DNA from: a virus
DNA length: 42,958 bases
Direction: 5' to 3' (one strand)
Virus record (IMG/VR): IMGVR_UViG_3300046683_000382
Location: 1-42,958 of that record
The notes below the pieces were generated by a model, which saw only the letters and a program-made list of their open reading frames with translations, did not search any database and was not told where the DNA came from. Shown piece by piece: positions 1,038-38,643 of this stretch (position 1 is its first letter; each line of letters begins with the position of its first letter). Both the position numbers and the translations under genes were made by a program.

Positions 1038-2807
1038 ATGCCCGCTGTCTCACGGGCTCTTCGCCACAAATGGATTCCTCTGGGATTGTCGAAGGGCGGG
1101 GAGTTCCCGAATTCGACCTCCCACGACTCGCAGCCTGACACCCTCACGACCGTCAACGATCTGGTGATCTCCGGTGGGGAGTGGGTTCCCCGGGCGGGAG
1201 ACTCCGTATTTGGCCCCACGCTTCCCTCCCAACCGTTGTCGATGACCGTGTTCAACCGCTACCCGACTTCCCCCGGGCCATCCACTTCCCACCTTCTGAT
1301 CTCGATCGCAGGAACCGTCATCGAGCAGACGTCGATCGCCACGACGACGATCAAGGGCTCGCTTTCGAACCGGCGCGTCGTTTTCAACTCGATCAAGAAC
1401 CGCTGCTTCATGTGCAACGGGGTCGATACCCCTTTCATCTTCGACGGGACGACGGCCTATCGGTGGGGCGTCTCCGCGCCCTCGACCAACCTTCTGTACA
1501 CGACAAACACCGCGATCTACAACACCGGAACGATCACGGTGTCCGGGGGTCCCGGGGCCGTTACGCGGATCGACCTGACCTATCAGGGTACGGGATACGG
1601 TGTCGCCCCTGCGGTCACAATCGCCCCTCCCCCAAGCGGCGTTACCGCGACCGCGACGTCGGTGATCGCTGGCGGGGTCGTCGTGGCCGTCGTCATCACC
1701 AACGGCGGAACGGGCTACGTCTCGGCGCCCGTCGTCACCATCGCGGCCCCCGGTGGACCCGGGCAGACGGCGACGGCGATGGCGACGATCACGACCGTCG
1801 GATCAACGATGGTGACCGGCGCCGGAACGACCTTCACGACGGCGGGTCCGCTCGCGGGATCGCCGGTTGGATGCCCGATGTACATCTTCGGAGTCCGGTA
1901 TCAGATCGCATCCGTCACCGACAACACGCACCTGGTTCTCTCGACTCCCTACCAGGGGATTTCGGTTCTGTCGATCGCGGCCCCGGAGTGGCAGATCAAC
2001 AACGGGGCCATGCAATGGGAAGCTGGTAACGGCTTCCGGTATGGGTACTCCTACTACGATCCGGTCACGGGCCATACGTCGAACCTGTCCCCCATTCTGT
2101 CGGTCGATGACGCGGCACCCGCCAACGACTTCTCGACGGTGGTGATTTCCAACATCGTCACGACGGGCGATGCCAGATTTACGAAGATCGTTCTCTGGAG
2201 GACTGCCCACGGAGGGGGAGTTCTCTTTCCCTTGGCCGTGCTGACCAACGCGGGCGGTCCTCTTTCCTACTCGGACAACAACAACGATGACACCCTTCTC
2301 GGGACGGTCGGACCGGGGACCCTCCCGGGACCGATTACGACCAACGCTCCGCCCCCGACCGACCTCGACAACGTGTCGGCGTGGGATGGGAGGTTCTGGG
2401 GGTCCCGGGCGTCCGTGCCGGGGCTCATCTACTACTCGGCCAAGAACGACCCTTCCGAGCTTCCGGTCGGGGTGGGTGAGGAATGCTGGCCTCTTCCGTA
2501 CACGATCCCGATCCCCGAGGATTCCGGTTCGATCACGGGCACCAGGCCCGTCGGCGGCAACATCGTCATCGAGACAGAGAAGTCGCTTTTCTACGTCGTG
2601 GGCAACGCCCCGGAGAACTACACGATTCTGCGCCTCTCTTCGAAGGGGAGGGGATCGTCGCATTTTGCCTGCGTGACCCTCCCGGGCGAGGACGCCAATT
2701 CCGCCGACGTTCTCGTTCACTTCGGCAATGACGCGAGGCTCTACTTCCTCTTTGGCCCGGGTGGAGACCTCTCCTACTCCTACCCCATCCAGAACAGGCT
2801 GATCTGA
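1038..2807 (+). CDS. Large beta-propeller tail-hub-like structural protein
   Basis: The product has 589 residues and starts directly after the previous TAG. It is almost entirely beta-rich. Two related GTGY-x-x-AP-x-VTI motifs lie near residues 183-194 and 222-236, followed by a GTTFTTAG segment near 258 that resembles the GTTWNT motif of the connector. Phrases such as FIFDGTTAYRWG and RFWGSRASVPGLIYYS are typical of P22 gp10-like hub proteins of short-tailed phages. It ends abruptly at YPIQNRLI, where a longer propeller might be expected to continue. The next gene overlaps it by one base (TGATG). The hub role is inferred. Confidence 0.5.
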   Translation: MPAVSRALRHKWIPLGLSKGGEFPNSTSHDSQPDTLTTVNDLVISGGEWVPRAGDSVFGPTLPSQPLSMTVFNRYPTSPGPSTSHLLISIAGTVIEQTSIATTTIKGSLSNRRVVFNSIKNRCFMCNGVDTPFIFDGTTAYRWGVSAPSTNLLYTTNTAIYNTGTITVSGGPGAVTRIDLTYQGTGYGVAPAVTIAPPPSGVTATATSVIAGGVVVAVVITNGGTGYVSAPVVTIAAPGGPGQTATAMATITTVGSTMVTGAGTTFTTAGPLAGSPVGCPMYIFGVRYQIASVTDNTHLVLSTPYQGISVLSIAAPEWQINNGAMQWEAGNGFRYGYSYYDPVTGHTSNLSPILSVDDAAPANDFSTVVISNIVTTGDARFTKIVLWRTAHGGGVLFPLAVLTNAGGPLSYSDNNNDDTLLGTVGPGTLPGPITTNAPPPTDLDNVSAWDGRFWGSRASVPGLIYYSAKNDPSELPVGVGEECWPLPYTIPIPEDSGSITGTRPVGGNIVIETEKSLFYVVGNAPENYTILRLSSKGRGSSHFACVTLPGEDANSADVLVHFGNDARLYFLFGPGGDLSYSYPIQNRLI

Positions 2808-4837
2808 TGCCCAACGTCGCCGCCACCATCATCGTTGGGAACAATCCGACGCGGGTCAACGCGAGCGCGAGCTACGTCTATGCGTTGAATTCCGGCGACG
2901 GAACCCTCTCCAGGATCGACCCCTCGACCAACAACGTCATCGCGACCGTCTCTCTCGGGGGCACGTTCTACGACTTCGCGGTCGGCTCGGGGAATTTCTT
3001 CGCGGTGGATTCTTTCGGTAATTTCAAGAGGTTCAATCCCTCCGGGGGGCTTCTTACGACCGTAGCGGGGAGCTATTTCGGCCCCGTGTTCTACGACGGG
3101 ACGTATGTCTGGGCCGCGCAGCTCACCGGGAATGCGATCACCCGCTTCACGAATCTGGCCGTCGGGACTTCCCTTTCGCTCGGGAGCCCTCCCGCCGGTA
3201 CGACCTTCGTCGTGCAATCGTTCGCGTTCGACGGAGCAAACGTCTGGGCATTCGTCCGAAACGACGGGGGGACGGCCCACAAGATCGTCAAGATCAACCC
3301 CGCTGGCCCAACGATCACGGCCACGTTCTCGACCACGGTCGGATCAACCGGCTTCTGCGGTCTCGCCTTCGATACGACCAACACGTTCCTCTGGCTCGAT
3401 GGCGGGAACACGATCAAGAAGATCAACCCCGCGACCGGGGCGGTCGTCGCCACGATCTCGGCTACCAGCTCGTCCAACGTCGTATTCGAGTCCACGAGCC
3501 CCGGCATCTGGAAGGACGAGCAGTCCACCTCCGTCTATCGGCTGGACCCCGTAACCGGGGGCATCACCGCGACCATCGTGGGCTTGGCGAACCTGACCCG
3601 AATGTGGGTGTTTGCCTTCGGGGACGTCTGGGCGTCCTCTTCTTTCACGGGAGCGAAGTCCGTCTATCGAATCACGGGCTTGGGGCCTCCCGCTGCGGCG
3701 CCCACGGTCACGTCGATCACTCCGAACAACGGCCCGACTTCCGGAGGGACCCCGGTTTCTATCGTCGGGACGAACTTCCAGAGCGGAGCCGCCGTCGCGA
3801 TCGGGGGAATCTCCTGCACGGGAGTCTCCTTCATCAGCGCGACGAACCTGACGGCCACCACTCCACCGAACCTGGTTGTTGGGGTGTACGACGTCATGGT
3901 CACGAACCCGGACGGAAATACCGGGATCAAGGCCGCCGCCTACACCTACGCCTATGGCACTCCGACGATCGTCGGGGTCTCGCCGTCGTCCGGGCTCACG
4001 GTGGGAGGAAACGTCGTCACGGTCATCGGTACGAACTTCTCCAGCCTCTCGACGGTGACCTTTGGCGGCGTCTCTGCGACCGGCGTGGTCATTACTACCA
4101 GTTCGTCCCTGACGTGCATCGCCCCTCCCAGTGCCGCAGGAGCCGTGACCGTTGCGGTCACCAACCCCGGTCCGCTGACCGGCTCCCTGGCTGCGGCGTA
4201 CACCTACCTCACACTTCCCCCGCCACCGCCCGTCTCGTCCCGCTGGAACGCGGGGAACACGATCCTGGGGCTGGTCCACACCCGGGACTCGACGTACATC
4301 GTCCTGTCCAACCGCGATCCCGCCGTGACCCAGACCTTCCTCTACGACATGGACCGGAAGCTCTGGTTCGAAAACACGATGGGGATCGTGGCGATGACCG
4401 AAGAGCTGTACTCCGGGTCCCTGACCTTCTTCTACGGGACGTCTGACGGGGTGGTCCACCAAGGATTCACGGCCACCCCGCCCAACTACGGGAACACCCC
4501 GAGGGTCCAGACCATCTTCATGAACCCCCCGGGCAAGAGCCGGGAGGATTGGGCCGTGCTTCAGGGGGTCCACGTTTACGGGACGGATGCGGGTCTGGTG
4601 GTCACCGCCGCCACGGACGACGCCTCCCCGGTCACCCTTGTCCCGGTGGTCGATCCGACGAATACTCTGCCGCAGGGGGTGGACGACATTTTCTACGCTC
4701 CGCAGGGTGCCGTTCCGCGTGGAAGGCTCTTCCGCTTCACGCTGTCGTGGCCCGGAAGCTCACCGGAGGCTATGGCCGCGTTCGAAGCCCTCTGGTCCTT
4801 TGCGACCGACCAGCAGGGCGCCGGGGGCGTTCCGTGA
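2807..4837 (+). CDS. YncE/NHL-like propeller with two IPT/TIG domains, tail protein
   Basis: The product has 676 residues. Residues 1 to about 295 contain repeated strands of the type DP-x-T-N-x-VIATVSLGG, TGAVVATISAT and TGGITATIVG, as in YncE/YVTN beta-propellers. Two IPT/TIG immunoglobulin-like domains follow at about 297-380 and 383-468; both show the PTVTSITPNNG/PTIVGVSPSSG opening and a TNPDG or TNPGP turn. The last 200 residues return to the style of the preceding gene (FLYDMDRKLWFEN, FYGTSDGVVHQGF). I infer a virion-surface tail protein, possibly the second half of a hub propeller with an inserted adhesion module. It overlaps both neighbours by one to four bases. Confidence 0.55.
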   Translation: MPNVAATIIVGNNPTRVNASASYVYALNSGDGTLSRIDPSTNNVIATVSLGGTFYDFAVGSGNFFAVDSFGNFKRFNPSGGLLTTVAGSYFGPVFYDGTYVWAAQLTGNAITRFTNLAVGTSLSLGSPPAGTTFVVQSFAFDGANVWAFVRNDGGTAHKIVKINPAGPTITATFSTTVGSTGFCGLAFDTTNTFLWLDGGNTIKKINPATGAVVATISATSSSNVVFESTSPGIWKDEQSTSVYRLDPVTGGITATIVGLANLTRMWVFAFGDVWASSSFTGAKSVYRITGLGPPAAAPTVTSITPNNGPTSGGTPVSIVGTNFQSGAAVAIGGISCTGVSFISATNLTATTPPNLVVGVYDVMVTNPDGNTGIKAAAYTYAYGTPTIVGVSPSSGLTVGGNVVTVIGTNFSSLSTVTFGGVSATGVVITTSSSLTCIAPPSAAGAVTVAVTNPGPLTGSLAAAYTYLTLPPPPPVSSRWNAGNTILGLVHTRDSTYIVLSNRDPAVTQTFLYDMDRKLWFENTMGIVAMTEELYSGSLTFFYGTSDGVVHQGFTATPPNYGNTPRVQTIFMNPPGKSREDWAVLQGVHVYGTDAGLVVTAATDDASPVTLVPVVDPTNTLPQGVDDIFYAPQGAVPRGRLFRFTLSWPGSSPEAMAAFEALWSFATDQQGAGGVP

Positions 4838-7341
4838 GGGGACGCGACGATCAGAGCGACGACGCCCCGCTGCCGGGAAGGGTCCTCCAGAAGCAGTTCT
4901 ACCAGACCGGGACGTATCCCAGGGCGCTCTCGCTTCAGTCGATCGACGGGGGCAAGAACGTGCTGGCCACCCTTGCGATCGGGGAGCAGTTCCTGCTCGA
5001 CAAGAAGATCATCACCTTCCGGCTTTTCTACCTCTCGGCCAAGGAAGTGACCGCCGACCAGATTGTGACGAATTTTGGTCCCAATCAGAACGGCAACAAC
5101 TTCCCGTATTATCAAGACCTTACGTCCAAGGCGAAGTGGCTCGTGGACCTTCCGGTGGCCGGTCAGACCATGACCACCGTGATTTCCGGCAACCTCGTTT
5201 CGGACGGCGGGTGGATTTACGCCGTGGGTCTCGGCGTTCTGGGTCGCGTTCGGGCCGGAGCCACGACGGCCCCGGTGCCCATCCCGACCGCATCCGAGGC
5301 GTCCGCCGTCCCTCGTTTCGAGGTGAGGAACCCCCAGGTCTCGTTTTCTTCGGAGTGGGCCGACAACCTCCGGGCGAGAACGTACCGCGACACCATCACG
5401 ATCGCGTACCTTGCACCGAGTCCACTCGACACATTCCGGTATCTCCAAATCTGGATGTTCAATTATCAAAACAGCCAGCAGATGCGGGAGGGTCCGACCT
5501 TCTCATACCTCGGTGGACCCGGAGGGCAGGGCACGGGAACCTTCTACCTGGAGACCGACGACGCCATCAATCCGACGACGGGACGCTCGGTCTATCCGGC
5601 TCACGACGTTGTGTTCTATTTTGTTGCGCTGTCAGCCACTTTCGCCCATCGGTCGGACTTCATTCTCCCGACGCAGGGACAGGTCGTCCCCATCGTCGGA
5701 AGGGGTCCGCAGCCCTCGACCCGGACGCCGATTCCCTACGTCATTCTGCGTGGCGGAATCCTGGGGGGAATGACTCCGCCGATCTCGCCGCTCCCCTCCG
5801 GGCAGATCAAGGGCGCAAAGATTCAGATCACCTGGACGGAGATCAACGATCAGACAATCGATCATGTCAACATCTACCGCGCCAATCAGGGGACGGTGGG
5901 AACGCCCGTCACCAACGGGATGCCCGCCACCCCGTTTGCCGTCAGGACGAAGGACCAGATCATCCAGAGCGGCACGAATACTTGGGTGGACGCGGACTTC
6001 AACGACTACCGTGGGGGAGACCCGCAGTACTCCCCCACCAACCCCCCGGACGACTTCTCGGTCGTTGATCCCGCCAGATTTCAGTATTGGCTGGAGACGG
6101 TAAATCTGATGGGGATGCGCTCACTTCACCCGGAGACGACGGGGGTCATGATCCTGCGCGGCGTGGATGGCACGGATACCCACCCCGGGGCCACCTACCG
6201 GGACAACATCTTCAACTGCTTCTGGAACTGCCAGTTCTTTTCGAATGTCACGGTCGCGTCCGCTGCCGTTGCCCCGGCGAACCAAACGAGGGGCGCTCCC
6301 AACAACGCCAATGGGGACGCCTACGGGAAGTGGGACAACGACTCGGCGGGGACGGTCGGAACGGTCCCCCAATTCGTTTCTGACGGCACGAACCGGACCG
6401 GCGAGGTGGATATCTTCGCGAACACCTCCGCTGCCATCAATGATTTTGTACGAATTTTCAACGATTCTCCCCGGTCGGTTTTCGTGGTCGATGAAAGTCT
6501 CGTCTCGTCGGTTTTCATCGGGTACGACGGGGTGGGCAACGCCCCCTCGGAGTCGATCGCGCTCGGGATCGCGGAGGTCTCGGGCGGCGTCCAGATCGGC
6601 GGGTCGTACATCATCGCCTACTTCCCCGGGTCGATCCTGGGCAACGTGGGAACGGGCGGGAATCCCGTCAACTACGTCAGGATCGTCGGCTACGGAATCC
6701 TCGCGACCAACACCTACGATCACGTCCGATTCGCGATCGGGTTGAAGAATCAGGTCGGCGGCGCCGCATCCGGGATGATCCGGATCAAGCAGCCGATGGT
6801 CAACGGAGGAATCGAAGTGGCGAGCTGGACGGCGACGGTGCGGGACCAGGATTCTCCCGGAGGTCCCGGGACCGGGGGCGGGGGAAACCCCCCTCCCGAC
6901 GGCGGGCAATGCCCCCTCTCCGGGACGCTGGTCGAGACGATCGACGGGACCTTCCCGATCGACGTCGTTGCCCCGGGCGACATGATCTGGTCCCCCATCA
7001 CGAAGAGGGTGACCAAGGTCGTCCAGAACAAGGAGTATCCCTGCTCTGAAATCTGGTCGATCTCGACGGACGCGGGGACCAACCTCCAGGCGTCCCGCGA
7101 TCACCCGATCCTGATGAAGGGCCGATTCTGGAATCGCTTCAAACGGATCAGGGAAATCCGGCCCAACGACAAGATCATGGTCTATCGGCACGGGGTTCTC
7201 CGGGCCGAGACCGTCAAGGCCGTGTTCCAGGCGACCAACGCCAACGGCTTCGTTTTCATGCTGACCCTTGAGACCGACCACGTTTACTGCGCCAACGGGG
7301 TCGTCTCCCACAACAAGGATTATGGACACCAAGTTCCGTAG
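4834..7341 (+). CDS. Large virion protein with C-terminal Hint (bacterial intein-like) domain
   Basis: The product has 835 residues from GTG 4834, which overlaps the previous stop (GTGA). The first 690 residues are beta-rich, with a fibronectin-III-like stretch near 325-380, and end in a Gly/Pro linker. A Hint domain then runs from Cys693 to Asn827: block A is CPLSGTLVETIDG, the DVVAPGDMIWS turn follows, block B is QASRDHPIL with the catalytic His, and the C-terminal block is VVSHN. About 135 residues fits bacterial intein-like domains. The residue after His826-Asn827 is Lys rather than Cys, Ser or Thr, so cleavage is more likely than splicing. The gene sits among tail and internal virion genes; the role of its N-terminal part is unknown. 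Confidence 0.7.
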   Translation: MRGRDDQSDDAPLPGRVLQKQFYQTGTYPRALSLQSIDGGKNVLATLAIGEQFLLDKKIITFRLFYLSAKEVTADQIVTNFGPNQNGNNFPYYQDLTSKAKWLVDLPVAGQTMTTVISGNLVSDGGWIYAVGLGVLGRVRAGATTAPVPIPTASEASAVPRFEVRNPQVSFSSEWADNLRARTYRDTITIAYLAPSPLDTFRYLQIWMFNYQNSQQMREGPTFSYLGGPGGQGTGTFYLETDDAINPTTGRSVYPAHDVVFYFVALSATFAHRSDFILPTQGQVVPIVGRGPQPSTRTPIPYVILRGGILGGMTPPISPLPSGQIKGAKIQITWTEINDQTIDHVNIYRANQGTVGTPVTNGMPATPFAVRTKDQIIQSGTNTWVDADFNDYRGGDPQYSPTNPPDDFSVVDPARFQYWLETVNLMGMRSLHPETTGVMILRGVDGTDTHPGATYRDNIFNCFWNCQFFSNVTVASAAVAPANQTRGAPNNANGDAYGKWDNDSAGTVGTVPQFVSDGTNRTGEVDIFANTSAAINDFVRIFNDSPRSVFVVDESLVSSVFIGYDGVGNAPSESIALGIAEVSGGVQIGGSYIIAYFPGSILGNVGTGGNPVNYVRIVGYGILATNTYDHVRFAIGLKNQVGGAASGMIRIKQPMVNGGIEVASWTATVRDQDSPGGPGTGGGGNPPPDGGQCPLSGTLVETIDGTFPIDVVAPGDMIWSPITKRVTKVVQNKEYPCSEIWSISTDAGTNLQASRDHPILMKGRFWNRFKRIREIRPNDKIMVYRHGVLRAETVKAVFQATNANGFVFMLTLETDHVYCANGVVSHNKDYGHQVP

Positions 7342-11294: not shown

Positions 11295-13176
11295 CGAGCC
11301 CGTATTCGGAGAGAAGCTGCCCGAGGGCGGCGATCCCTCCGGTGGCCCGATTTTCGGTGCGCCCATTGCCCAACAGGAGGGTAGGGCGATTGCTGCGACC
11401 AAGCCGTCGGTCATCAAGGGGCTCGCCCGTGGAGCCACGTCGGCACTTCCAGATCAGGCGATGTTCCTGTCTGACGTTCCTATTGTTGCCGGTCTCGCTG
11501 GCGGCGCCCTGGAGGGTGCGCGGCGATTGATCGACAACGTGTTCGATCTCCAGTTCCCGGGCGAGAAGAAGATGACGGCGAAGGAAATTGGTCATTCGAT
11601 GTACACGGAGGCGTGGCATCAGTTGGTCTTTTCCGGGGTTGCCAAAGCCTTCGGTCATGCAGTCGCCGGTATTCGTAACGTGGCGGTTTCGAAGGTCGCG
11701 CAAGCTGGTCAGAGGGCTCTCGAAAACCCAGAGGCGGCAAGGGCTCTTGAGATTGCCGAAACGAAGAAAATTCCATTGTCCCACGCCGAGATCACGCAAG
11801 GGACGATGCCCAAGCTGATCCAGAGAGTCGCGACGTCGCAGCCCCTCTCGAAAGACATTGCCGTTGCCGCAGAGAAGAAAACTACCGACCGCGTGATCTC
11901 TCTCTTGGATGAAATTCGCGCTCCGCTCGGGGCGCTCAAGGAGGGTCAAGCCACCGGGGAAATGGTTCAGGACGTTCTGACAAAGGGGGAAGAGAACTTT
12001 TCCAACGCAGCGAGAACTCTCTACAAAACCAACCGTGACGTGGCTTCCCAAGCCAAAATCACGATCCCTCGCAAAGGCATGATGCCGGTCGTTGACGATA
12101 TCGAAAAGGAAGTCAACGATTTCCAGGAATACTTCCACAAGATCGGCAACCTCGACCCCAGGATGGAAAACGCCATTGAGTCGATCCGTGGAGATATCGC
12201 AGAGGCCAGAAGCGTTGGCCCGACATTTGTCGATAAGAGTGGCAAGCCCCTCATCGAGAAAACTACCGCAAAGAAAACCTCACCTCCAGAAATTCCGTGG
12301 CACATCGCCGACAACTTTCGCCAATGGCTCAACGATGCGATTGACGCCAATATGCCCGGGACGTCTATGGCTGCCGCCAAAAGGATTCAGAAGAGCGTTA
12401 CCGAACTCATGGAGGGCGCGGCCAATAAGGCTGGCGGGGGCGTTCTTTCATCGTGGAAAGAGGCCCGTTCATTCTGGGAGAAGGGCAAGTCTATCTTTGA
12501 GGACAGCCTGTATCGCAGCGTGGTGACGTCCGCCCCGGAGGCGGTGGCAGAGTCAATCGGCCCGAGGGAATCCACAAAGCTGTCCAAGGTTCTTGAGGTC
12601 ATGAGGGACCCGAGAATGAGCGGCGGTATCGAGGGAAGCAAGAAGGCCGAGGATGCGCTTCGTCTCCGGTGGGTGGCCCATCACATCACGGGCGGCGACG
12701 AACCCACAAGAATGTCGATTGACCTGATGCAGGACAATCTGAAGAAAATGACGCCGGAATTCGCGAGGACCATGTTCGGGGGTTCCAAGGAGGCGGAGAC
12801 ATACCTGAAGGACCTCCGGGACATTGCCTTCGTCATGCAGAAGGGCAGGAAGGTCGTCAATCCCGGGATCGCCGGAACGCTCGCGGAGCAGCACACGGCG
12901 TCGATGATGTTCCGCTCGGCAATGTCGATGGCCCTGATGCGCTTCAAGTCGATTCCCTTCATGATCTCGACCCAGATGACGGGGCCGGTTCTCGCGAAAA
13001 TCGCCTTTGATCCCGCCGCCACGAAGCTGCTCTTGGAGGGGGCGTACATGGCCGAGAAAACCCCGTCGAAGGCCGTCAGCCTGATGTTCCGGTCGATTGA
13101 TCTCGTCATGAAAGAGGGGAAGCTCTATCGGCAGTTCCAGGATTCCAAAACGGCAGCGGCAGAACCCAAGGAATGA
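11278..13176 (+). CDS. Large internal virion protein
   Basis: The product has 632 residues. The start is TTG 11278, supported by a strong GGGAGGT Shine-Dalgarno sequence about eight bases upstream, inside the end of the preceding gene. The protein is mainly helical, with a Gly/Ala-rich segment near 45-75 (VPIVAGLAGGALEGARR) and a moderately hydrophobic region near 540-570. No enzymatic motif is visible. It is the longest of the four consecutive internal-protein candidates, and its position before the end of the late unit fits an ejection protein. Confidence 0.5.
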   Translation: MPQSSNEPVFGEKLPEGGDPSGGPIFGAPIAQQEGRAIAATKPSVIKGLARGATSALPDQAMFLSDVPIVAGLAGGALEGARRLIDNVFDLQFPGEKKMTAKEIGHSMYTEAWHQLVFSGVAKAFGHAVAGIRNVAVSKVAQAGQRALENPEAARALEIAETKKIPLSHAEITQGTMPKLIQRVATSQPLSKDIAVAAEKKTTDRVISLLDEIRAPLGALKEGQATGEMVQDVLTKGEENFSNAARTLYKTNRDVASQAKITIPRKGMMPVVDDIEKEVNDFQEYFHKIGNLDPRMENAIESIRGDIAEARSVGPTFVDKSGKPLIEKTTAKKTSPPEIPWHIADNFRQWLNDAIDANMPGTSMAAAKRIQKSVTELMEGAANKAGGGVLSSWKEARSFWEKGKSIFEDSLYRSVVTSAPEAVAESIGPRESTKLSKVLEVMRDPRMSGGIEGSKKAEDALRLRWVAHHITGGDEPTRMSIDLMQDNLKKMTPEFARTMFGGSKEAETYLKDLRDIAFVMQKGRKVVNPGIAGTLAEQHTASMMFRSAMSMALMRFKSIPFMISTQMTGPVLAKIAFDPAATKLLLEGAYMAEKTPSKAVSLMFRSIDLVMKEGKLYRQFQDSKTAAAEPKE

Positions 13177-14495
13177 GCAATTTCCTGCTCGTCTCTCCGT
13201 GCGGCGAATCCCTGATGCTTCTCGAAAACCTTCGGGCCTCCGGGCACAACGTCGTCATGTGGAATCCCCAACCCACCAAGGCGGGCGACGGGATCGTGTT
13301 CAAGACCGACGACCCGGAATCCTTCGCAGGACAGGCCGACGCGATCGTCTTTGACGACAACGGCAAGGGGTACATGGCTGACCGCTGGCGGGAGCGTGGA
13401 CTTCCGGTCTGGTGCGGCGGTACGTTTGCCGAAGCGATCGAGTACGACCGCCTCTACGGGCAGAAGGTCTTTGCCGAGAACGGAATTCCCGTCCCCGAGA
13501 CTTTCGAGGTTTCCTCGATCGGGGACGTGAAATCGGTTCTCAAGGCCGAGTTCTCCAAGAAGGAGAAGGTGGTCATCAAGGTGTCCGGAGAGGGCGGCGC
13601 TGGAACGTCGTTTTCCTTCTGCGCCACCGACTCCGAACAATGCGAGGATCAGGTTTCCCATTGGATTGATGACGGCCTTCTCCCGGGGGCCTGGACCGGC
13701 ATCCTCCAGAGGTTTGTCGAGGGGATCGAGGTCTCCATCGAGGCGTGGTGGAACGGATCAGCCTGGACCTATCCCAACATCACCATCGAGGAAAAGAAGT
13801 TCGCGTCAGGGAATCTCGGTCCCTCCGTCGGGTGTGCGTTCAACACCGTGGCGAGGATTTCGCCGACGTCCCGGCTCTTCCAGATTGCTCTTCAACCTCT
13901 TGGCCAACTCCTGAAGGATCGTGGGTACGTTGGCCAGATCGATACGAACACGATCGTAGATCGCGACGGAATCCCTCACGCGCTCGAATTCACGCCGCGT
14001 CCGGGATACGACGCTACGCCCACGCTCGTTTGGGGCGGGGGTCCCCGTTACGGTGATGCGGTACTTGCCGCCCTCCGTGGGGCAGACGTAGAGGAATTCG
14101 AAGGTGACGTCGCGAGTCGGAAAGGGAAGTACCTGGTTGGAGTCAGGGTCCATATTCCACCTTATCCTTTCGAAAGTAAGTCAGACGATCTCTCCGAGAA
14201 AGTTTACGAGACGGCCTACGGGGTTCCCATTGATGGGTGGGAGTCCGTAAGAGAGGACTTCTACCTCTATGATGCCTGTTACGACGGCGGGCGACTGGTC
14301 TGCGCCGGGACGAGTGGTATCGTTGGTATTGCGATGGGGGCAGGAGATTCCCCGGCTGACGCCGCACGAGCGGCATACCGAATCGCGGAGAAAATCCGGG
14401 TTCCCAACAAGAGCTATCGCGCCATCGACGGCGCAAGACGTGCAAACGATGCGATTCCGGAGCTGGTCGCTCTTGGACTCGTGAAAATCCTGTAA
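13173..14495 (+). CDS. ATP-grasp ligase, PurD (GAR synthetase)-like
   Basis: The product has 440 residues; its ATG overlaps the previous stop (ATGA). The order of elements matches phosphoribosylamine-glycine ligase: an N-terminal pre-ATP-grasp domain (SNFLLVSPCGESLML), the YDRLYGQKVFAENGIPVPE helix, a nucleotide-binding strand (VVIKVSGEGGAGTS), the ILQRFVEGIEVSIEAWWNG strand, and the metal-binding GIPHALEFTPRPGYD region. In that region PurD normally has E-F-N-x-R; here Asn is replaced by Thr. The length matches PurD (about 420-430). No other purine gene is near. The late-operon position, directly after ejection proteins, suggests ligation of an amine to a carboxylate on another substrate, but this is inference. 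Confidence 0.75.
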   Translation: MSNFLLVSPCGESLMLLENLRASGHNVVMWNPQPTKAGDGIVFKTDDPESFAGQADAIVFDDNGKGYMADRWRERGLPVWCGGTFAEAIEYDRLYGQKVFAENGIPVPETFEVSSIGDVKSVLKAEFSKKEKVVIKVSGEGGAGTSFSFCATDSEQCEDQVSHWIDDGLLPGAWTGILQRFVEGIEVSIEAWWNGSAWTYPNITIEEKKFASGNLGPSVGCAFNTVARISPTSRLFQIALQPLGQLLKDRGYVGQIDTNTIVDRDGIPHALEFTPRPGYDATPTLVWGGGPRYGDAVLAALRGADVEEFEGDVASRKGKYLVGVRVHIPPYPFESKSDDLSEKVYETAYGVPIDGWESVREDFYLYDACYDGGRLVCAGTSGIVGIAMGAGDSPADAARAAYRIAEKIRVPNKSYRAIDGARRANDAIPELVALGLVKIL

Positions 14496-21990: not shown

Positions 21991-22089
21991 CTACTTTTTC
22001 TTTCCTCCTTTCCGCTTCTCTGCCAGAAGCCTGTCGATTCGCTTCGCCCTGGCTTTGGCGATCACCTTCCAATTGTTTTTTACCTTCAT
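21991..22089 (-). CDS. 32-residue basic peptide
   Basis: ATG 22089 makes an ATGA overlap with the glutamine amidotransferase stop. The peptide is strongly basic and helical (NNWKVIAKARAKRIDRLLA, ending in KGGKKK). It is the last gene of the amidoligase unit and may bind nucleic acid or act as a substrate or partner; this is open. Confidence 0.5.
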   Translation of the reverse strand: MKVKNNWKVIAKARAKRIDRLLAEKRKGGKKK

Positions 22090-23255
22090 GAGATCGCCGT
22101 TTCCCTCCCCAGACACGAGTCGCAGATGATCATGTTCTGGTATGGAGTCCAGCCGTCTCCCGCGCCAATCGGCATATCGCACCGATCGCAGACGGGAGAA
22201 CCGGAACCTTTCAGAACGGCCTGGGCTTCGGAAGTCTGGAATTCAAGCTCGTCGGCTTCGTCCCATTTCCCCGATTGGATAGCCTGCTCGACTTCCTTCG
22301 GCGTAGGAACGGCGGTCAACGGGCGAACCGGCTTTCCGAACCGCTGCCAATCCCCGTAGTTGAACGTACCGCCGTGTTCCTTGTAATCGAGATACGCTTT
22401 CGCAGGAACGGCGTCCTTGGATTCTCCGGCGTAATTAACCCATTTGCCGGATCGATCCTTGATCCAATATCCACCGTGTTTCCCCGTGAAAACGTCCTCA
22501 TCGACGCGACCATCCCATCCGTAGGAACCGGAATAGCTGGAAGCGTTCGCCTCTTTCAGTTTGACCTTCATCTTTGAATGAAAGAGGGTTCCATCCTCGA
22601 CGTAATAGAGGCGCCTTTGCTTGACGGTGTAGAACCCATGATCGGCAATCCCCGCCAATCCGCACGCCATGTCAATCGCGTCCCTGGTAGATGCCCAGAC
22701 GACGCCATTGCAGACCTTCGTGTCTTTCGGATCATTGAAGATTCCCGCGATGTAGAGGTCACCACGACCCCATCTCGCCATGTAAACCCTCTGCGGTTCG
22801 TCGGAACGGATGTAGGTAATCGCGCCGTATCCCTCGATATCGGAGCAATCCTTTCCGTTTGCGATCTGCCAGAAGATATGCATGGAGTCCACCGGAAGAT
22901 CGATTGAATACTTCCGGTTTAATTCGTCATCGTTCCAGATGATCCCATTGTGCGCCCCGATCACGTTGCATTCCGGACCTTCGATGTAGAACGGATGGGA
23001 ATTTTCCTCCGTGACCGCGCCCGTAGTGGCTTGGCGAGTGTGTCCCAGAACCGCCCCATGTTTGGAGAGTTCTGCCGCATTGACTCCAATCGTAGGATTT
23101 CCTACGCCCCGTTTGGTCTCACCTCCCGGAACGTGGTATCCCCACGATTGATCGCCCCGATCCTCCATTTCCCGAATCAGGATGGCGAGCAGCGCAGAAC
23201 GCTGCGACCTGGAGGACGATTTCTCGAACCCCTGTATTCCGTACAATCCGCACAT
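22086..23255 (-). CDS. Class II glutamine amidotransferase (Ntn hydrolase) with zinc ribbon
   Basis: The product has 389 residues. It begins MCGLYGIQGF, so Cys2 becomes the N-terminal nucleophile after Met removal. GHTRQATTG (71-79, Arg74), NSHPF (85-89), GAHNGIIWND (100-109) and the DSMHIFW region match the glutaminase sites of GlmS, PurF and AsnB. No synthase domain follows. The C-terminus instead has a CDRC...CDSC zinc ribbon (about 353-378). It would release ammonia from glutamine, or hydrolyse a related amide, for the amidoligase encoded just upstream; the two genes overlap by TAATG. Amidoligases of the PF12224 family are known for such neighbours. Confidence 0.88.
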   Translation of the reverse strand: MCGLYGIQGFEKSSSRSQRSALLAILIREMEDRGDQSWGYHVPGGETKRGVGNPTIGVNAAELSKHGAVLGHTRQATTGAVTEENSHPFYIEGPECNVIGAHNGIIWNDDELNRKYSIDLPVDSMHIFWQIANGKDCSDIEGYGAITYIRSDEPQRVYMARWGRGDLYIAGIFNDPKDTKVCNGVVWASTRDAIDMACGLAGIADHGFYTVKQRRLYYVEDGTLFHSKMKVKLKEANASSYSGSYGWDGRVDEDVFTGKHGGYWIKDRSGKWVNYAGESKDAVPAKAYLDYKEHGGTFNYGDWQRFGKPVRPLTAVPTPKEVEQAIQSGKWDEADELEFQTSEAQAVLKGSGSPVCDRCDMPIGAGDGWTPYQNMIICDSCLGRETAIS

Positions 23256-24655
23256 TAGAATCCCCTCTCTCTCTGTTGGTTGGCCTGTTGTCTCGCCTCA
23301 TTGCAGACTCCGCAATTGCATCCGGTTCGCGCCGCGTAATCTCTCAGAGATTCGTTCTCCGGCGGTTCCGGTTCCTCCGGTTCTTCGTAGGAATCCGCCG
23401 GTTCTTCGTCCTCTCCCGAATCCTCGGGAGGTTCCGGGAACCGGAAATTCTTCGCTACGCCGAATCGTGAGGTCCGATCATTGATGTATTCCAGAGAGAG
23501 GGAGGGCATCGGAACGGATCGAAGGATATCCAGAGGGGTTCCAGACAGGGCGATGATTTCCCGCTCGGGGGTTTTCATGGCGTAATCTAAAATTGCCGCC
23601 CACATCATTGCCCATGCCTGCATTCTCTCGGGGCGTGTCGAACCCTGGTGAATACGACACTCGACTGTCCCACGGTAAACCCATGAATCGAGATTCAATC
23701 CCCGGTATCTGTCGGACATTCCCTTTTGCGCTTTCCCGTGGCGGTATCGATCGGTTAAAACCTCTGTCGGCTCGGCGTCATCGCCGGTGAATCCTTCGCC
23801 GTAGAGGGCACCGATGATTCCCTTTTTGGATTCCTTCGGAACCGCGCCCGTCTTTCGCAATGCGTCTGCGAGATACTTCCCGCATGGAGAGCAGTAGGAA
23901 TTTCCTCTGCGCCATTGCGGAACGATGGAATACAAGGCCAATTCGATCTTCTCGTAGAGAAAGATCAATCGCCTCATGTCGTACCATCTGAAATCTCTCG
24001 CGTCAATGTGGCAATGCATTCCTGCATCGGAGTAACAGCTACCTCCGTTATTCCTGATAGCCTCTCCCAGATCGGAGAGTTGATTCAGAAGGAGGTCACC
24101 GTTTGCCGGAGAGGTATTGATCTCTACGGCGGTATCCCGATGCAGAGAACCGTCTGTCACGATCGAGCAGGACCATTGATACGCGGCACGATTCGTAAAA
24201 GACCCTGGAGTCCGGAATTCCGACACTTCTAATTCCAGAGATACGAAACGCTTCGAAGGATTGCGAGAGAATTCCTTTTTGAGCTTGGACGATTCCCAAA
24301 ACTTCAGAGGTTGCGTCCAGACTTGCGGGAAATAATTCCGCAGCCGGGGCTCCCCTGGGTCATGGGAAATATCCTCGTGGTTTTCTCTCTGCGTTTCGGC
24401 AATGCGTTTCTTGCAACACTTGAAACAGATTCCGCATTGCTTGCACGTTTGAACACCGAAAAGAACGGTTCCGCAGCGGCACCGGCACGCGCAATGTGAT
24501 TTGCATGACGCGCATATCGTGCAGCGTTTCGGTCCGACTTTCCTGCATTCAGAATTGGAATATACGTTCCGCCTGGAACCGTTATCCCAATTCCTTTGCG
24601 CGACGTAATTGCATCGCGGCGTTTTTACTTTCGCCGCAGCCTTTGCGTCTGTCAC
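23255..24655 (-). CDS. Amidoligase (COOH-NH2 ligase, PF12224-like) with Cys-rich N-terminus
   Basis: The product has 466 residues from GTG 24655, with AGGAGG six bases upstream. Residues 37-81 hold at least eleven cysteines in CxxC-type spacing (CTICASC, CACRCRC, CKQCGICFKCC), a probable multi-zinc domain. The ligase core follows: SLELEV (139-144) for metal binding, VTDGSL (166-171), Glu178, SDAGMHCHID (209-218), then LNLDSWVYRGTVECRIHQGS (320-339) with Asn321, Arg328, Glu332 and Arg334. These match the glutamine-synthetase-like amidoligase pattern. The tail is Glu/Pro-rich and ends with CNCGVC. It probably joins an amine to a carboxylate with ATP; the substrate is unknown. Confidence 0.85.
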   Translation of the reverse strand: MTDAKAAAKVKTPRCNYVAQRNWDNGSRRNVYSNSECRKVGPKRCTICASCKSHCACRCRCGTVLFGVQTCKQCGICFKCCKKRIAETQRENHEDISHDPGEPRLRNYFPQVWTQPLKFWESSKLKKEFSRNPSKRFVSLELEVSEFRTPGSFTNRAAYQWSCSIVTDGSLHRDTAVEINTSPANGDLLLNQLSDLGEAIRNNGGSCYSDAGMHCHIDARDFRWYDMRRLIFLYEKIELALYSIVPQWRRGNSYCSPCGKYLADALRKTGAVPKESKKGIIGALYGEGFTGDDAEPTEVLTDRYRHGKAQKGMSDRYRGLNLDSWVYRGTVECRIHQGSTRPERMQAWAMMWAAILDYAMKTPEREIIALSGTPLDILRSVPMPSLSLEYINDRTSRFGVAKNFRFPEPPEDSGEDEEPADSYEEPEEPEPPENESLRDYAARTGCNCGVCNEARQQANQQRERGF

Positions 24656-30530: not shown

Positions 30531-31343
30531 ATGGGACTTCTGATCTATGGCTCCGGTTCCGGTGGTGGGGGAGGCGGCTCCCCTTACGGCGGTGCGCTCA
30601 ATCCCTCTGGGCAGCTTGCGTTTTCCCCGTCCGGACAGGGTGGCCAAAGCTACGTATCGACCTCCAACAGCGCGACACTCAATCCTGCAAATGCACTCTC
30701 TATTTCGGCATGGGTGCAGACGTGGCCGTCGCTGGTTGCAACAAACGGTCTCGGAATCGTTTCGAGGGGAGACGGGACCGCCACCGGGGCATGGGGAAAT
30801 CAGCCGTATTTCATGATTATTTCCGCCGGTCCTCCCCTGATCGTGAATTGTGGACTGAACGCCGCCGGGGCCGCTATTGGGGTGGTCGCGGCTGCCCCGA
30901 TCCCTGCCGGGGGATGGCACCATATCCTGATGGCCTACGACAAGGTTAACCTGAAGGTTTATGTTGACAACGTGCTTCGTGTGACGACGGCGTTCTCAAC
31001 GTCGATTACATCGAGCGCCGTTCTCACCTACATTGGAACGTGGTATAGCCTCGTGGCAACCCGCTGTTTCTTCGGGAGAATTTTTGATGTTCGCATCTGG
31101 AACTCAACACTTCTCCAGGCCGACTGCACGGGGCTGTATAGCTCCGGTCTTTCCGGGTCAAATCTCGTGACCCCGATTCAGCCGGGAAGCCTCGTCGGCT
31201 GGTGGAAGTTGAACGATTTCACCCCCGGGCAGACCGGCGCCGTTCCAACGACAGCCGCTGATTCATCCGGGAATGGTTTCACGGGAACGCTCGCGGGTAC
31301 GGACAAGCCGATGTGGCTGGCCGGATCGAATCTCCTGTTCTGA
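30531..31343 (+). CDS. LamG-like (concanavalin fold) receptor-binding candidate
   Basis: The product has 270 residues. A Gly-rich start (GSGSGGGGGGS) precedes a LamG_3-type jelly-roll: NALSISAWVQTW, then GGWHHILMAYDKVNLKVYVDN, then GRIFDVRIWNSTL, and a final LVGWWKLND...DSSGNGFTGTL motif typical of sugar-binding LamG modules. Such domains in tail proteins usually contact host surface glycans. The neighbours upstream and downstream are other tail-like proteins. Confidence 0.72.
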   Translation: MGLLIYGSGSGGGGGGSPYGGALNPSGQLAFSPSGQGGQSYVSTSNSATLNPANALSISAWVQTWPSLVATNGLGIVSRGDGTATGAWGNQPYFMIISAGPPLIVNCGLNAAGAAIGVVAAAPIPAGGWHHILMAYDKVNLKVYVDNVLRVTTAFSTSITSSAVLTYIGTWYSLVATRCFFGRIFDVRIWNSTLLQADCTGLYSSGLSGSNLVTPIQPGSLVGWWKLNDFTPGQTGAVPTTAADSSGNGFTGTLAGTDKPMWLAGSNLLF

Positions 31344-34980: not shown

Positions 34981-36570
34981 ATGGCGCCAAGCAACGTCAC
35001 GCCGTTTGCGGAAAGGAAGATCAAGGGACGCCCGACCAACGCCGAGCGCGGCCTTCGTGATCTCTTCTACTTCGCCCGCGAGATCATGGGCTTCGATGCG
35101 CTCGCAACCGAGCCGCACGAGGCCATCTGCGAACAACTCGCCAAGCGTTTTGCCTTGGCGCCCGACGGCCTGAACCAAGCCCTCATCATTCCCCGTGACC
35201 ACCTGAAATCAACCCTGGGCCGCGCCCTCTGCTTGTGGCTCTTTACCCGTCACGCGTGTCTGGAAAACGACCTGGAATTCCGTGTATTGATCGACACCTC
35301 GACGCTCACTCTTTCGAAGAAGGACATTCGTTTTCTCGAAACGCAGTTCTCTTCGAACAAGCTCTACCGCACCCTGTACGGCGATTTCTACGGGGTGGGC
35401 GACGGGTTCACCGAACGGCAGATTTACGTCAAGGGCAGGGCTCGCAGCGGAGTCGTGATCGAGCCCAACTTCATGGCCTCCGGAATCAAGGCCGAGGTCA
35501 CGGGACTCCACTTCGATCTGATCTGGCCCGACGATCTGTCGTCGGAGCAGACGGCCTACTCCAAGCACATGAGGGAGAAGGTCATCGACCACTACGAGAA
35601 CCTTCTTTCCCTTCTGTCGGAGGGCGGGACCGTGTTCTATACGGCGACCCCGTGGCACGACGGGGACCTGACGGGATTCATCCGGAGGAACGATGCCGCC
35701 CGTCTTGAGTCGGGGGACAAGCCGATCTACTCGGTGATCTTCCGGCCCTGCTACAACGATGACGGGTCCGCGCTCTTTCCTTCCCGCTGGCCGGTCGAGG
35801 CGCTGGAAAAGAAGAAGGCGTCGCTCCGGGCATGGAAGTGGTCGTCGCAGTACTTGCTCAATCCCGTCCGCCCGGAGGACTCGATCCCCTTCGACAAGAC
35901 GGAAATGTACATTCCCCGGGACAGGTTCCCGGAGAAACTGCGCCTCCGGACGATGACGATCGATCCCAACTTCCGCCACGACGACCAGGAGTCGGGCGAC
36001 AACGGGGCATTCATCGTCGGTGGGTTCGATCGGTACATGAAGTGGTGGGGCATCGACGTCAAGCTCGCCCCGTACACGGCGGAGCAATTTCTGAACACCT
36101 TTTTCGAAATGGTCGATACCTGGAAGCCGCAGCTCGTGAAGATCGAAGAGAAATTCGCGTCCTTCATCAATTTCACCCTGCGCGAGCGGGCCATGAGGGA
36201 AAAGCGTATTCTTCCCCGCATCTATCTGATCCGGAGGGACAATGAAGGAAAGCTCCAGCGGTACTCCAATCTCCACCCCTTGTTCGCCTCCCGCTCCATC
36301 CATTTCGCGGACGAACTCACCCCCGACGTCAAGGCCGAGATCGAGGACGAGCTTGAGCGAGTTGGAACGTCTCGCTTTGACGACTTCCTTGACGCCCTGT
36401 CAGACCAGTTCCGTGACGTCAACCCGTCGAACGCTGCCGACGAGGATGCCTTCGGTCAGCCGGAAGAGCGCCGAAGCGAAGGACTCGTCCCGGGGATGAT
36501 GCATCCGGCGACCGACCTTGAAATGTGGGAGAAGTTCTACACGAAAGACGAAGGCCCAACGTGGTCATGA
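34981..36570 (+). CDS. terL: Terminase large subunit
   Basis: The product has 529 residues, starting directly after the previous TAG. The ATPase has a deviant Walker A at 71-78 (PRDHLKST), Walker B at 178-185 (FDLIWPDD, with Asp-Asp in place of Asp-Glu) and a coupling motif TATPW at 221-225. The RNase H-like nuclease begins at TMTIDPN (Asp328) and ends with FDDFLDALSDQ. This matches the Terminase_6 type. The protein packages DNA into the prohead through the portal encoded next (ATGA overlap). Confidence 0.92.
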   Translation: MAPSNVTPFAERKIKGRPTNAERGLRDLFYFAREIMGFDALATEPHEAICEQLAKRFALAPDGLNQALIIPRDHLKSTLGRALCLWLFTRHACLENDLEFRVLIDTSTLTLSKKDIRFLETQFSSNKLYRTLYGDFYGVGDGFTERQIYVKGRARSGVVIEPNFMASGIKAEVTGLHFDLIWPDDLSSEQTAYSKHMREKVIDHYENLLSLLSEGGTVFYTATPWHDGDLTGFIRRNDAARLESGDKPIYSVIFRPCYNDDGSALFPSRWPVEALEKKKASLRAWKWSSQYLLNPVRPEDSIPFDKTEMYIPRDRFPEKLRLRTMTIDPNFRHDDQESGDNGAFIVGGFDRYMKWWGIDVKLAPYTAEQFLNTFFEMVDTWKPQLVKIEEKFASFINFTLRERAMREKRILPRIYLIRRDNEGKLQRYSNLHPLFASRSIHFADELTPDVKAEIEDELERVGTSRFDDFLDALSDQFRDVNPSNAADEDAFGQPEERRSEGLVPGMMHPATDLEMWEKFYTKDEGPTWS

Positions 36571-38474
36571 GCCCCAAGGACAAGAAGATCGAGCGGGAGG
36601 GCCAGGTCAACCTCCGGCGATCCCTTGCCCATCTGAAGAAATTCTCCCAGGGATGGAAAACCAACAAGAAGCTGATGTACGGAGCTACGGAGCTTGGCAC
36701 GGGCTACAACGGGATCGCCCACGCCTACGGCCTCTTCCGTTCGCTCGTGACGTCGATTCTCGTGGGCGTTCCGCGCCCCTATTTCGAAAACACCGCATCC
36801 CCCGCCCATCCTCTCGCGCTTCTTCTGGGCGATGCGGTCTGGTACGACTTCAAGATCGGGCGCCTGCGCGACCGGCTGGTCAAGGCTCTCTGGCAGACCT
36901 TCCCCTATGGCTTGGGGATCATCGGGGAGCAGATGGAGACCAACAAGGTCCCCACCTACGACAAGGACAAGAAGGCCGACGGCGGATCACTCATCGACGG
37001 TCAGCGGTACTTCTGGAAGAATGTGCCCGGAAAAGACACGACGTTTGACCCGGACGGATTCCAGATCGACTTGGATGACCACCGCTTCATCAACGTCGCC
37101 TACTACAAGACCGTCACCGAGATTGAAGAGGACAAGACCTACTTCAACAAGGAAAAGATCGATGATTTCCCCAGGGCCAACGAGACGTCCGACACCGACA
37201 GGAACCGCTACTTCAACCTGGGTGAGGTGGACAAATCCAACGAGGACAACCCCGCCTTCCACCAGATCAAAATCTGGCGGCAGTACGACCGCGTGGACGA
37301 GAAGATCAAGGATTTCGCAGACCACGACAAGCGCCTGATTCGCGTGGAGCCGTGGCCGGTTCCGGTCAAGATTCAGGGCATCCTCCAGTTCCCGGTCCGG
37401 ATTCTGGCCATGAATACCGAGACCGACGACTTCTACCCGACCCCGGAAGTCGATCTCATCAAGCCGCAGCTCCGGGCTCTGATCCGGATGAACGACACGA
37501 TGATGACCGACATGACGACCAAACTTCGAAAGTACATTGGTCTCGCGCCGTACATGGACCAGGCCAAGATGGAGAAGCTGACAGCTCTCAATCAGCCCAA
37601 CTCCTTCATCGTCACGTCCAACGAGGACGTTCTGTCCTTGAAGTCCGAGGTTCCGAAGGTCGATTCCGCCGCCGACGTCGTTCACCGCATCCCGGATATC
37701 CAGGTGGACCCCCAGATTTTCGCGGGCATGGCGGAAGTCCGGACCCAGATTCAGCAGATCACCGCCTACGGCGCCGCCGAGCGCGGTGGGCTCCCGGCCA
37801 TCCGGTCTGCCAAGGAAGCCTCCCGCGTGGCCGAGGCTGCCCAGAAATCGATGCTCGGACGCCAGATGACGATGGAAGATACGGTGCGGGATATCGCCCT
37901 GTACCACGTCCTTTTGCTCAAGATTTCCTCGTCGGACGTCAATTCCGCAGAGCGGTACGTCCGTATCTCGGACAGGGCCGGTGCCTTGGTCGAGTGGAAG
38001 AAGTACCAGCCATCGGAAATCCCTGATGAGAAAGACCTTTTCTGCGATGTGTACATTGGATCGTCAACTCCGATGACACTTGATACTAAACGCGCCCAAG
38101 TCCTTCAGGAGATTGGGGTTATGGGTCCGATGCTCCAGAAGGAGGGTCTGCCCATCACGCCCTTGATCTACCGCTACGCGGAGGTCAATCAGGTCCGGGA
38201 CATTGACGAGCTGTTCAGAAACGCCAAGGGAGCCGCCAGGCTGGCCCTTGCCGCGCTGGTCAAGGCCGGTCAGATGGGCAAGGACGCGCCGCCGGAACTC
38301 TTGCTCAAGCCTATGATGGACCTGATCGGAGCCAACCTCTCCCAGATGGAGCAGCAGATGGTCATCGAAGCGATCAGGAATCCGCAGAAGGGCCTGGGCG
38401 GTGGCGGCGAGAACGCCGGAAGTCCGATGCCCGCCGGGGAGTCTCCCGGTACGGCCAACGCGGGCGTGTCATGA
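36567..38474 (+). CDS. Portal protein
   Basis: The product has 635 residues from ATG 36567, an ATGA overlap with terL. It is highly charged and helical, with LFRSLVTSILVGVPRPYFEN near the N-terminus, the LIRMNDTMMTDMTTKLRKY helix in the stem/crown region, AAERGGLPAIRSAKEASRVA, and a Gly/Ala/Pro-rich end. Length and order after terL fit podovirus-type portals, which form the dodecameric DNA channel. I assign it by context and general features rather than one signature motif. Confidence 0.85.
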   Translation: MSPKDKKIEREGQVNLRRSLAHLKKFSQGWKTNKKLMYGATELGTGYNGIAHAYGLFRSLVTSILVGVPRPYFENTASPAHPLALLLGDAVWYDFKIGRLRDRLVKALWQTFPYGLGIIGEQMETNKVPTYDKDKKADGGSLIDGQRYFWKNVPGKDTTFDPDGFQIDLDDHRFINVAYYKTVTEIEEDKTYFNKEKIDDFPRANETSDTDRNRYFNLGEVDKSNEDNPAFHQIKIWRQYDRVDEKIKDFADHDKRLIRVEPWPVPVKIQGILQFPVRILAMNTETDDFYPTPEVDLIKPQLRALIRMNDTMMTDMTTKLRKYIGLAPYMDQAKMEKLTALNQPNSFIVTSNEDVLSLKSEVPKVDSAADVVHRIPDIQVDPQIFAGMAEVRTQIQQITAYGAAERGGLPAIRSAKEASRVAEAAQKSMLGRQMTMEDTVRDIALYHVLLLKISSSDVNSAERYVRISDRAGALVEWKKYQPSEIPDEKDLFCDVYIGSSTPMTLDTKRAQVLQEIGVMGPMLQKEGLPITPLIYRYAEVNQVRDIDELFRNAKGAARLALAALVKAGQMGKDAPPELLLKPMMDLIGANLSQMEQQMVIEAIRNPQKGLGGGGENAGSPMPAGESPGTANAGVS

Positions 38475-38643
38475 TTTCCGCAGAGTTTTCCGCAGGATTT
38501 CCGCAGGATAAGTCCGTGTATTCATTGAGCAAACTCTACTTTTCCACAAGTTTTCCGCAGTCCTACGTACTCCTATTGAGAGAAGGGGTTATCTCTTATA
38601 GAAGTAGTAGGGGTGTGGAAAACTCGTTTTCTGCGGAAAACTC
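38475..38643. other. Intergenic cluster of TTTTCCRCA repeats, possible replication origin
   Basis: Seven related 8-9-mers lie in 169 bases: forward at 38475, 38486-38494, 38497-38505, 38540-38548 (TTTTCCACA) and 38551-38559; reversed at 38614-38622 (TGTGGAAAA) and 38632-38640. The two with ACA match the relaxed DnaA-box consensus TTWTNCACA; the others have CGCA. A 13-base inverted repeat (38483-38495 with 38631-38643) frames the cluster. The sequence is clearly less GC-rich than its flanks. It is the only clear gene gap inside the late unit. Confidence 0.6.
38576..38602 (+). promoter_or_regulatory. Possible promoter before the capsid module
   Basis: TTGAGA (38576-38581) is followed 15 bases later by TATAGA (38597-38602), or 17 bases later by TAGAAG. 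The spacing is not ideal, so this is tentative. It would drive the Zn-ribbon, scaffold and capsid genes from 38644. Confidence 0.35.

Follow-up and report, generated by a model that had tools for sequence, protein, structure and literature searches.

Type A bacterial intein-like domains (BILs), as excerpts of the source describe them, combine a cysteine at the first position (Cys1) with a C-terminal His-Asn pair and have no +1 nucleophile, and domains with this Cys1/His/His-Asn residue set mainly cleave (PMC4031507). In excerpted accounts of two further Hint proteins, BIL2 is reported to link to lysine through an isopeptide bond and to dispense ubiquitin-like domains independently of ATP (PMC8616854), and Hedgehog carries out the first step only, with cholesterol (PMC7664689). 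For phages, the excerpted papers discuss inteins in terminases and replication genes (PMC7824862, PMC7412058, PMC6143709, PMC3556154, PMC5259590, PMC7468147, PMC8228797), report one case in a minor head protein (PMC7468147), and describe the S74 autopeptidase as a self-cleaving C-terminal chaperone domain on phage fibres (PMC7824862). Those portions of the open-access literature that we covered do not describe a function for Hints at the C-terminus of phage virion proteins, nor a lysine tail, and for ATP-free isopeptide ligation the sole comparable case in them is the ciliate ubiquitin-like locus. That a C-terminal intein or Hint domain occurs on jumbo-phage tail proteins is already recorded in database annotation.

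The window analysed here, the whole stretch of 42,958 nucleotides of virus record IMGVR_UViG_3300046683_000382, encodes a putative virion protein that ends in a Hint domain. We propose, with a probability of roughly 0.6, that the last 143 residues of this protein are an autoprocessing Hint on a phage surface (probably tail) protein, acting through a thioester at Cys693. The record carries an exact 127-bp direct repeat at both ends (1-127 and 42832-42958) and is therefore probably a complete genome of ~42.8 kb, in which, by virtue of the same repeat, the terminase and major capsid genes (34981-40998) adjoin the module of tail-fibre, adhesin and Hint genes:

1038..2807, + strand: tail-fibre-like protein, upstream, with matches to tail-fibre and virion PHROG families (phrog_5342, E 1.5e-11)
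2807..4837, + strand: adhesin-like protein, upstream, with YVTN beta-propeller repeat and IPT/TIG (choice-of-anchor Z) repeats (profile matches PF01833, E 5.5e-23; NF058597, E 5.6e-20; TIGR02276, E 1.4e-7)
4834..7341, + strand: Hint-bearing putative virion protein, 835 aa, with GTG as putative start codon
7322..7795, + strand: next gene, with an annotation that names no function; its ATG at 7322 lies in another frame and overlaps the codons of the tail KDYGHQVP
34981-36570, near the right end: terminase (phrog_38, E 5e-64)
40006-40998, near the right end: major head (capsid) protein (phrog_9953, E 4e-41)

Because its gene directly follows two tail-fibre/adhesin-like genes, the 4834..7341 product is plausibly a surface or virion (tail) protein, and the name of tail protein given by the first-pass annotation holds as far as this context carries it and no further. 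Residues 1-691 had no relative by tblastn in 50,697 phage records or by peptide patterns in IMG/VR, the whole protein had none among GTDB contigs, and a single-sequence AF2 model of carrier residues 301-678 gave no confident fold (pLDDT 30.8). The best-ranked phage-record matches of the terminase include phages of Pelagibacter, Lentibacter and Anabaena, which we take to be podoviruses; a pattern search of IMG/VR with this terminase yielded no relatives. Elsewhere in the genome, the structural module includes a purD-like ATP-grasp protein (13173-14495(+), E 3e-10), and genes for a class II glutamine amidotransferase (PF13522, E 7e-8) and an Amidoligase_2 protein (PF12224, E 1.6e-13) lie at 22086-23255(-) and 23255-24655(-). 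These three form an amide-bond enzyme set of the window phage, possibly for peptide modification of proteins, a role that has been predicted for such sets. A Laminin-G/ConA-like protein is encoded at 30531-31343(+) (PF13385, E 5e-16).

The Hint domain of the window protein

The features of the C-terminal part of the protein are as follows:

6856..6909, + strand: Gly/Pro-rich linker PGGPGTGGGGNPPPDGGQ before Cys693, with 7 Gly among the last 15 residues
6910..7314, + strand: Hint domain, residues 693-827, from profile, AlphaFold, Foldseek and VIA-align
6910..6912, + strand: Cys693, equivalent to Cys1 and putative nucleophile of the N-S acyl shift, from sequence and HMM alignment
7093..7104, + strand: block B motif SRDH with His757, with Ser in place of the commoner Thr
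7309..7314, + strand: His826-Asn827, the C-terminal block G pair, from sequence and HMM alignment
7315..7338, + strand: tail KDYGHQVP, eight residues, then TAG; the Lys828 codon AAG is at 7315-7317

The residues named by the first-pass annotation (Cys693, the SRDH histidine and His826-Asn827, then Lys, with eight residues in total) all stand in frame 4834-7341(+), and His816 of block F is intact as well. Residues 693-827 form a Hint domain. Pfam Intein_splicing matched it with an E-value of 4.8e-8 at 33.4 bits, slightly below the cut-off of 35.8, and Hint_2 with an E-value of 0.004, while an HMM from 60 viral Hints that excluded the window matched the full span of residues 693-827 (49.9 bits, E 2.6e-17) compared to a top score of 12.4 bits for shuffled sequences (1925 of 2000 shuffles reported). 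AlphaFold with 63 aligned Hints produced a model with pLDDT 93.1 and pTM 0.86, in which the beta fold of the Hint superfamily extends across the whole domain. Foldseek against the PDB returned Hint proteins only among the best 50 matches listed, and VIA-align gave Z scores of at least 19 to Hedgehog, the Mtu RecA and DnaB inteins, BIL2 and the C. thermocellum BIL, with scores tied within 1 Z across Hedgehog, inteins and BILs. The score of 49.9 bits against a shuffle best of 12.4, together with the structure matches, thus places the assignment far beyond chance; the C-terminal Hint of bacterial-intein-like kind that had been called from the letters is confirmed, and a predicted structure, which had been suggested as a check, does show the fold. 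The invariance of Cys1 in the 63-row alignment is uninformative, as rows were selected for Cys or Ser first and HN last.

With its Hint fold, Cys1, block-B His, C-terminal His-Asn and no +1 nucleophile, the domain has the defining combination of type A BILs, and the C. thermocellum BIL (2lwy) is a structural match to its model (Z 19.1). It differs from these BILs in that nothing substantial follows the Hint and in that its profile score is closer to inteins. BIL2 (Tetrahymena BUBL1 locus, 6y75) was the top Foldseek match (E 5.9e-9), but it sits between two ubiquitin-like domains, whereas the window has no downstream domain. The Hedgehog autoprocessing domain (1at0, 6tyy) has the same fold (Z 19.4-19.9) and C-terminal position and passes its thioester to an external nucleophile, as proposed for the window. 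The Hedgehog Hog domain, however, has a sterol-recognition region after the Hint and no His-Asn end, whereas the window keeps His-Asn, lacks such a region and has eight residues downstream. Terminase large-subunit class 1 inteins L133 and L184, the nearest tree rows, share Cys1 and HN with the window, but they lie inside terminase-like proteins (which we take to be terminases from motifs read by eye) with Cys at +1 and a C-extein, in contrast to the window's position at a protein end with Lys at +1.

Cys693, His757 and His826-Asn827 are the residues of a class 1 intein, but in place of a +1 Cys, Ser or Thr with a C-extein, the window has Lys828 and seven further residues, then a stop. Without Cys, Ser or Thr at +1 the Hint is therefore no classical intein, and a canonical splicing intein was ruled out on the absence of both the +1 nucleophile and the C-extein. 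The initial claim that a Cys, Ser or Thr must stand here for full splicing is nevertheless too strict, since type A BILs can splice through attack of a freed amine on the thioester, with cleavage dominating, according to excerpts of the source (PMC4031507). Two other candidates were rejected: a toxin-releasing PT-HINT (no PF07591 match, only eight residues downstream) and a gene split by a frameshift into the next ORF (the other two frames start Arg-Ile-Met and Gly-Leu-Trp, without a +1 Cys, Ser or Thr).

We found that the window Hint scores 64.7 bits with an intein profile versus 52.9 bits with a profile of other viral Hints; in an 8-fold control of this profile difference, 97% of 73 inteins and 7% of 86 others fell on the intein side, and none of the 86 non-inteins reached the window's difference in cross-validation. 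A tree placed the window among 16 inteins (support 99/97), nearest to L133 and L184, although keeping it outside these 16 was not rejected (AU test, p=0.405); its highest identity was 34% over 106 columns, to L184. These data suggest an intein-type profile kinship, with a tree position that is not firm. At block F position F:4 the aligned rows show Asp or Asn in the nearest terminase inteins and Met809 in the window; directly before Cys693 the window has Gln, with Gly-Gly at -3 and -2. Excerpts of one source give F:4 a role in splicing coupling (PMC4031507), and Met809 would fit a loss of this coupling. Because of the profile scores, the tree placement, Gln at -1 and Met at F:4, we read the window Hint as an intein-type domain that now serves, or has decayed, where a phage surface protein ends.

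Decay bears on an alternative in which the domain is an inert relic: a terminase-type intein, either captured at the gene end or left there, would have lost its C-extein and splicing and persist as an unreactive fold. The kinship to inteins, with the terminase inteins L133 and L184 nearest, would suit such an origin, as would a very long branch (3.29 changes per column), the lost F:4 residue and the replaced +1 residue. The long branch and the F:4 loss are both compatible with decay and count against autoprocessing, as does the fact that the window was picked for the presence of catalytic residues. However, this long branch has kept Cys1, the block-B His, the block-F His816 and HN, along with the reading frame and a fold predicted with confidence, and the tree placement is itself not firm; we regard the relic as distinctly unlikely.

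Terminal Hints and tail lysines on other viral proteins

We scanned IMG/VR with four productive DNA patterns derived from protein motifs, with frequencies that describe the first 120 stretches of each scan in database order. Pattern (a), ANG[hydrophobic]2-x-HNK, matched at least 120 stretches, most of them real Hints, and 20 of 120 among the matches listed end exactly in HN-Lys-stop, one being a chance match in a 12-residue frame. Pattern (b), FANG..HN with the +1 residue free, also matched at least 120 stretches, and typical inteins dominate among the matches listed: the +1 residue of the 114 new matches was Cys in 85, Ser in 21, Thr in 2 and another residue in six, and the remaining 6 stretches (by subtraction) lay in scan (a) loci with Lys at +1. 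Pattern (c), block A MxDGTxKxIE with the C-terminus free (at least 120 stretches, at least 124 matches), and pattern (d), GGGGCxxxGT (at least 120 stretches, at least 125 matches, 40 of them Hint-like among the matches listed), revealed long proteins with a Hint at their extreme C-terminus, Hints in tandem arrays and Hints that lack HN. The longer pattern HNKDY had no match in IMG/VR.

From at least 72 hits, delimited with an HMM built mostly from HNK hits and cut at Asn, we obtained, after removal of redundancy, 44 C-terminal Hints that end in HN and are followed by 1-52 residues, with Cys1 in 44/44 among the matches listed. In cellular DNA, which served as a control, 117 stretches with the block-A pattern of scan (c) contained 55 Hint hits that were closed and start-covered; just 2 of these 55 were terminal with HN, and their tails are KNIN and KSPNRRQW. 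Single terminal Hints are preceded by glycine more often than inteins are, with a mean Gly fraction of 0.26 versus 0.09 in the 15 residues before Cys1 (29 versus 72 rows, p=9e-6) and Gly at -1 in 21/31 (window included) versus 7/68 among the matches listed (p=1.3e-8). HN was missing from 23 of the 117 terminal hits listed, some being N-terminal intein halves; its loss in several viral terminal Hints suggests that this architecture can in some cases do without one of its two ends, which counts against autoprocessing.

Among the carriers of these Hints are PHROG 2048 tail proteins (L119 and L350), in which the N-terminal half is a match to 'minor tail protein L' of Roseobacter phage CRP-406. Other carriers are collagen-like virion proteins from cultured jumbo phages of Dickeya, Yersinia and Erwinia, with tails that end in TDIVAKAEKK, TDIVAKAEKL, TDIVAQAEKT and VDLVSKAEKN. 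Erwinia Y3 gp110 (record note 'putative phage tail protein, contains intein domain'), Dickeya AD1 gp108 and phage NCTB BN7874_132, the last with GGGGGG before Cys1, resemble the window in that a surface or tail protein leads into a Hint, HN and 7-10 residues; they differ from it in having Thr, Val or Ala at +1 and Lys near the tail end, and the jumbo-phage Hints are tblastn matches of the viral terminal Hint L116, not of the window Hint. Such recurrence of the layout on other phage carriers, often with a Gly-rich linker and with no nucleophile at +1, supports autoprocessing. The window shares the group layout of surface-type carrier, Gly-rich linker, Hint, HN and short tail with one Lys, though by lineage it does not clearly belong with the viral terminal-Hint group.

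Several further architectures were observed. L353 (5071-6510) and L354 (5092-6534) are collagen-like (Gly-X-Y) jumbo-phage virion proteins ending in a Hint, and L267 combines a collagen-like protein with a terminal Hint lacking HN. L008, L015, L030 and similar proteins continue from the Hint through HN-KGTTTQP into about 250 residues (-GLRMYLDPSKASS-), so that a Hint that cleaved or ligated would release or transfer an entire C-terminal domain. Two to four tandem Hints form the C-terminus of L300, L270, L014 and L058, and in the related arrays L269 and L341 the final Hint has lost His-Asn. Another set (L250, L301, L331, L345, L390, L438, L453 and L461) has a terminal Hint-like domain with Cys1 kept and without His-Asn, and its C-terminal end is acidic around DY(D/F)E.

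The tails after HN are rich in lysine. Using scans that were not conditioned on Lys, we found Lys in 28 of 29 non-redundant terminal tails among the matches listed, compared to 11.8 expected from the C-terminal ends of 2008 long ORFs in these loci, most of which are AT-rich (0 of 100000 simulations). This count left out the Lys-conditioned scan loci, the window, redundant rows, domains weaker than E 1e-5, tails longer than 30 residues, Hints that do not start with Cys, and two tails starting with Cys, both with Lys, which would make it 30/31. The signal appeared in two scans separately (13/14 and 10/10 among the matches listed for (c) and (d)), Lys was penultimate in 16/29 tails against a background of 7.2%, and exactly one Lys was present in 20 of 25 short tails, both again among the matches listed. 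Arg was depleted (4 observed versus 9.6 expected), and no other tail residue was comparably enriched, with Ala and Gln reaching only about P 0.03. Internal Hints without Cys, Ser or Thr at +1 likewise had Lys within the next 8 residues in 19/25 cases versus 11/65 for inteins (Fisher p=2.5e-7). The lone tail without Lys is that of L330, from an array family ending SP, and final Hints without HN (e.g. L269, L275, L276, L060) also have no Lys after the lost pair, in few independent families. A Shine-Dalgarno origin was ruled out for the group, with 2 of 34 lysine codons overlapping such a motif; the codon of Lys828, unlike most of the group, sits within the Shine-Dalgarno-like AAGGA. In related pairs, tail Lys columns were conserved no better than others (25/39 versus 120/187).

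A profile of 63 Hints, window included, matched BIL2 first in the PDB (E 2e-30), with the C. thermocellum BIL at 9e-25, ahead of all inteins. The next-best match after the BILs (E 1.7e-18) was 8w20/8w22, an 'Intein C-terminal splicing domain-containing protein' of 1368 aa with its Hint at 1083-1220.

Possible reactions and their meaning

In the autoprocessing that we favor, Cys693 would attack the Gln692-Cys693 bond, aided by Ser754/His757, and form a thioester at the end of the flexible Gly/Pro-rich linker; resolution by water or an amine would then free the 692-residue protein from the Hint, while cyclisation of Asn827 would remove the eight-residue tail at most. The lack of Cys, Ser and Thr after Asn827 rules out a class 1 branched intermediate, and because the Hint lies at the extreme C-terminus, only the N-terminal reaction has a large product. 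We infer that the Hint reacts and that its N-terminal bond matters; the earlier suggestion of an N-terminal thioester open to another nucleophile was right as a possibility.

That His816, His826 and Asn827 are all intact would also allow C-terminal cleavage only, in which Asn827 cyclises and sheds KDYGHQVP, and loss of Asp at F:4 favours C-cleavage in Mtu RecA variants. Yet the product would be an octapeptide whose codons overlap the start of the next gene, and in those other phages with HN-Lys-stop the same reaction would free one amino acid. We consider it highly improbable as the sole outcome, and C-terminal cleavage, put forward by the first-pass annotation as a likely result, is unlikely to matter here.

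The Cys693 thioester might instead be attacked by Lys828 or by a lysine of a neighbouring subunit, which, with cyclisation of Asn827, would join the Gly-rich end through an isopeptide bond. At the level of the group, the tail Lys excess, Arg depletion and single Lys per short tail point this way, as do the Lys-rich internal Hints without Cys, Ser or Thr at +1 and the first place of BIL2 in the profile search, BIL2 being reported, in excerpts, to form such a bond (PMC8616854). The tail Lys and the BIL2-first match thus make ligation a testable reading for the viral terminal-Hint group, and a Gly-ended thioester with a lone lysine would resemble the BIL2 design. The reading is weaker for the window, where the Hint scores as an intein, Gln rather than Gly stands at -1 and the Lys codon lies inside AAGGA, and the conservation of tail Lys columns and the SP tail of L330 count against it more widely. 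Ligation in the window is accordingly, in our judgement, unlikely, and the cross-linking raised by the first-pass annotation gains support from the group (tail Lys, Gly before Cys1, BIL2 likeness) but is weakened for the window protein by its intein-type profile, Gln at -1 and ambiguous Lys.

A broader and tentative reading, which we rate as rather unlikely, is that phage C-terminal Hints are ATP-free, ubiquitin-like conjugation modules on tail or surface proteins, with the window as an independent, intein-derived entry. The Gly-rich end would be activated as a Cys1 thioester and passed to the dedicated tail lysine after His-Asn or, in trans, to an acceptor on a neighbouring subunit or the host surface, and the outcome would be fibres with a covalent cap, cross-link or anchor.

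A thioester-forming Hint at the end of a tail protein, as the autoprocessing reading holds, would be a maturation chemistry different from that of S74, and recurrence in uncultured and cultured phages makes the idea of terminal Hints testable now. Should the tail lysine act as acceptor, phages would be a natural source of isopeptide ligases that work without ATP, which would be useful for protein engineering.
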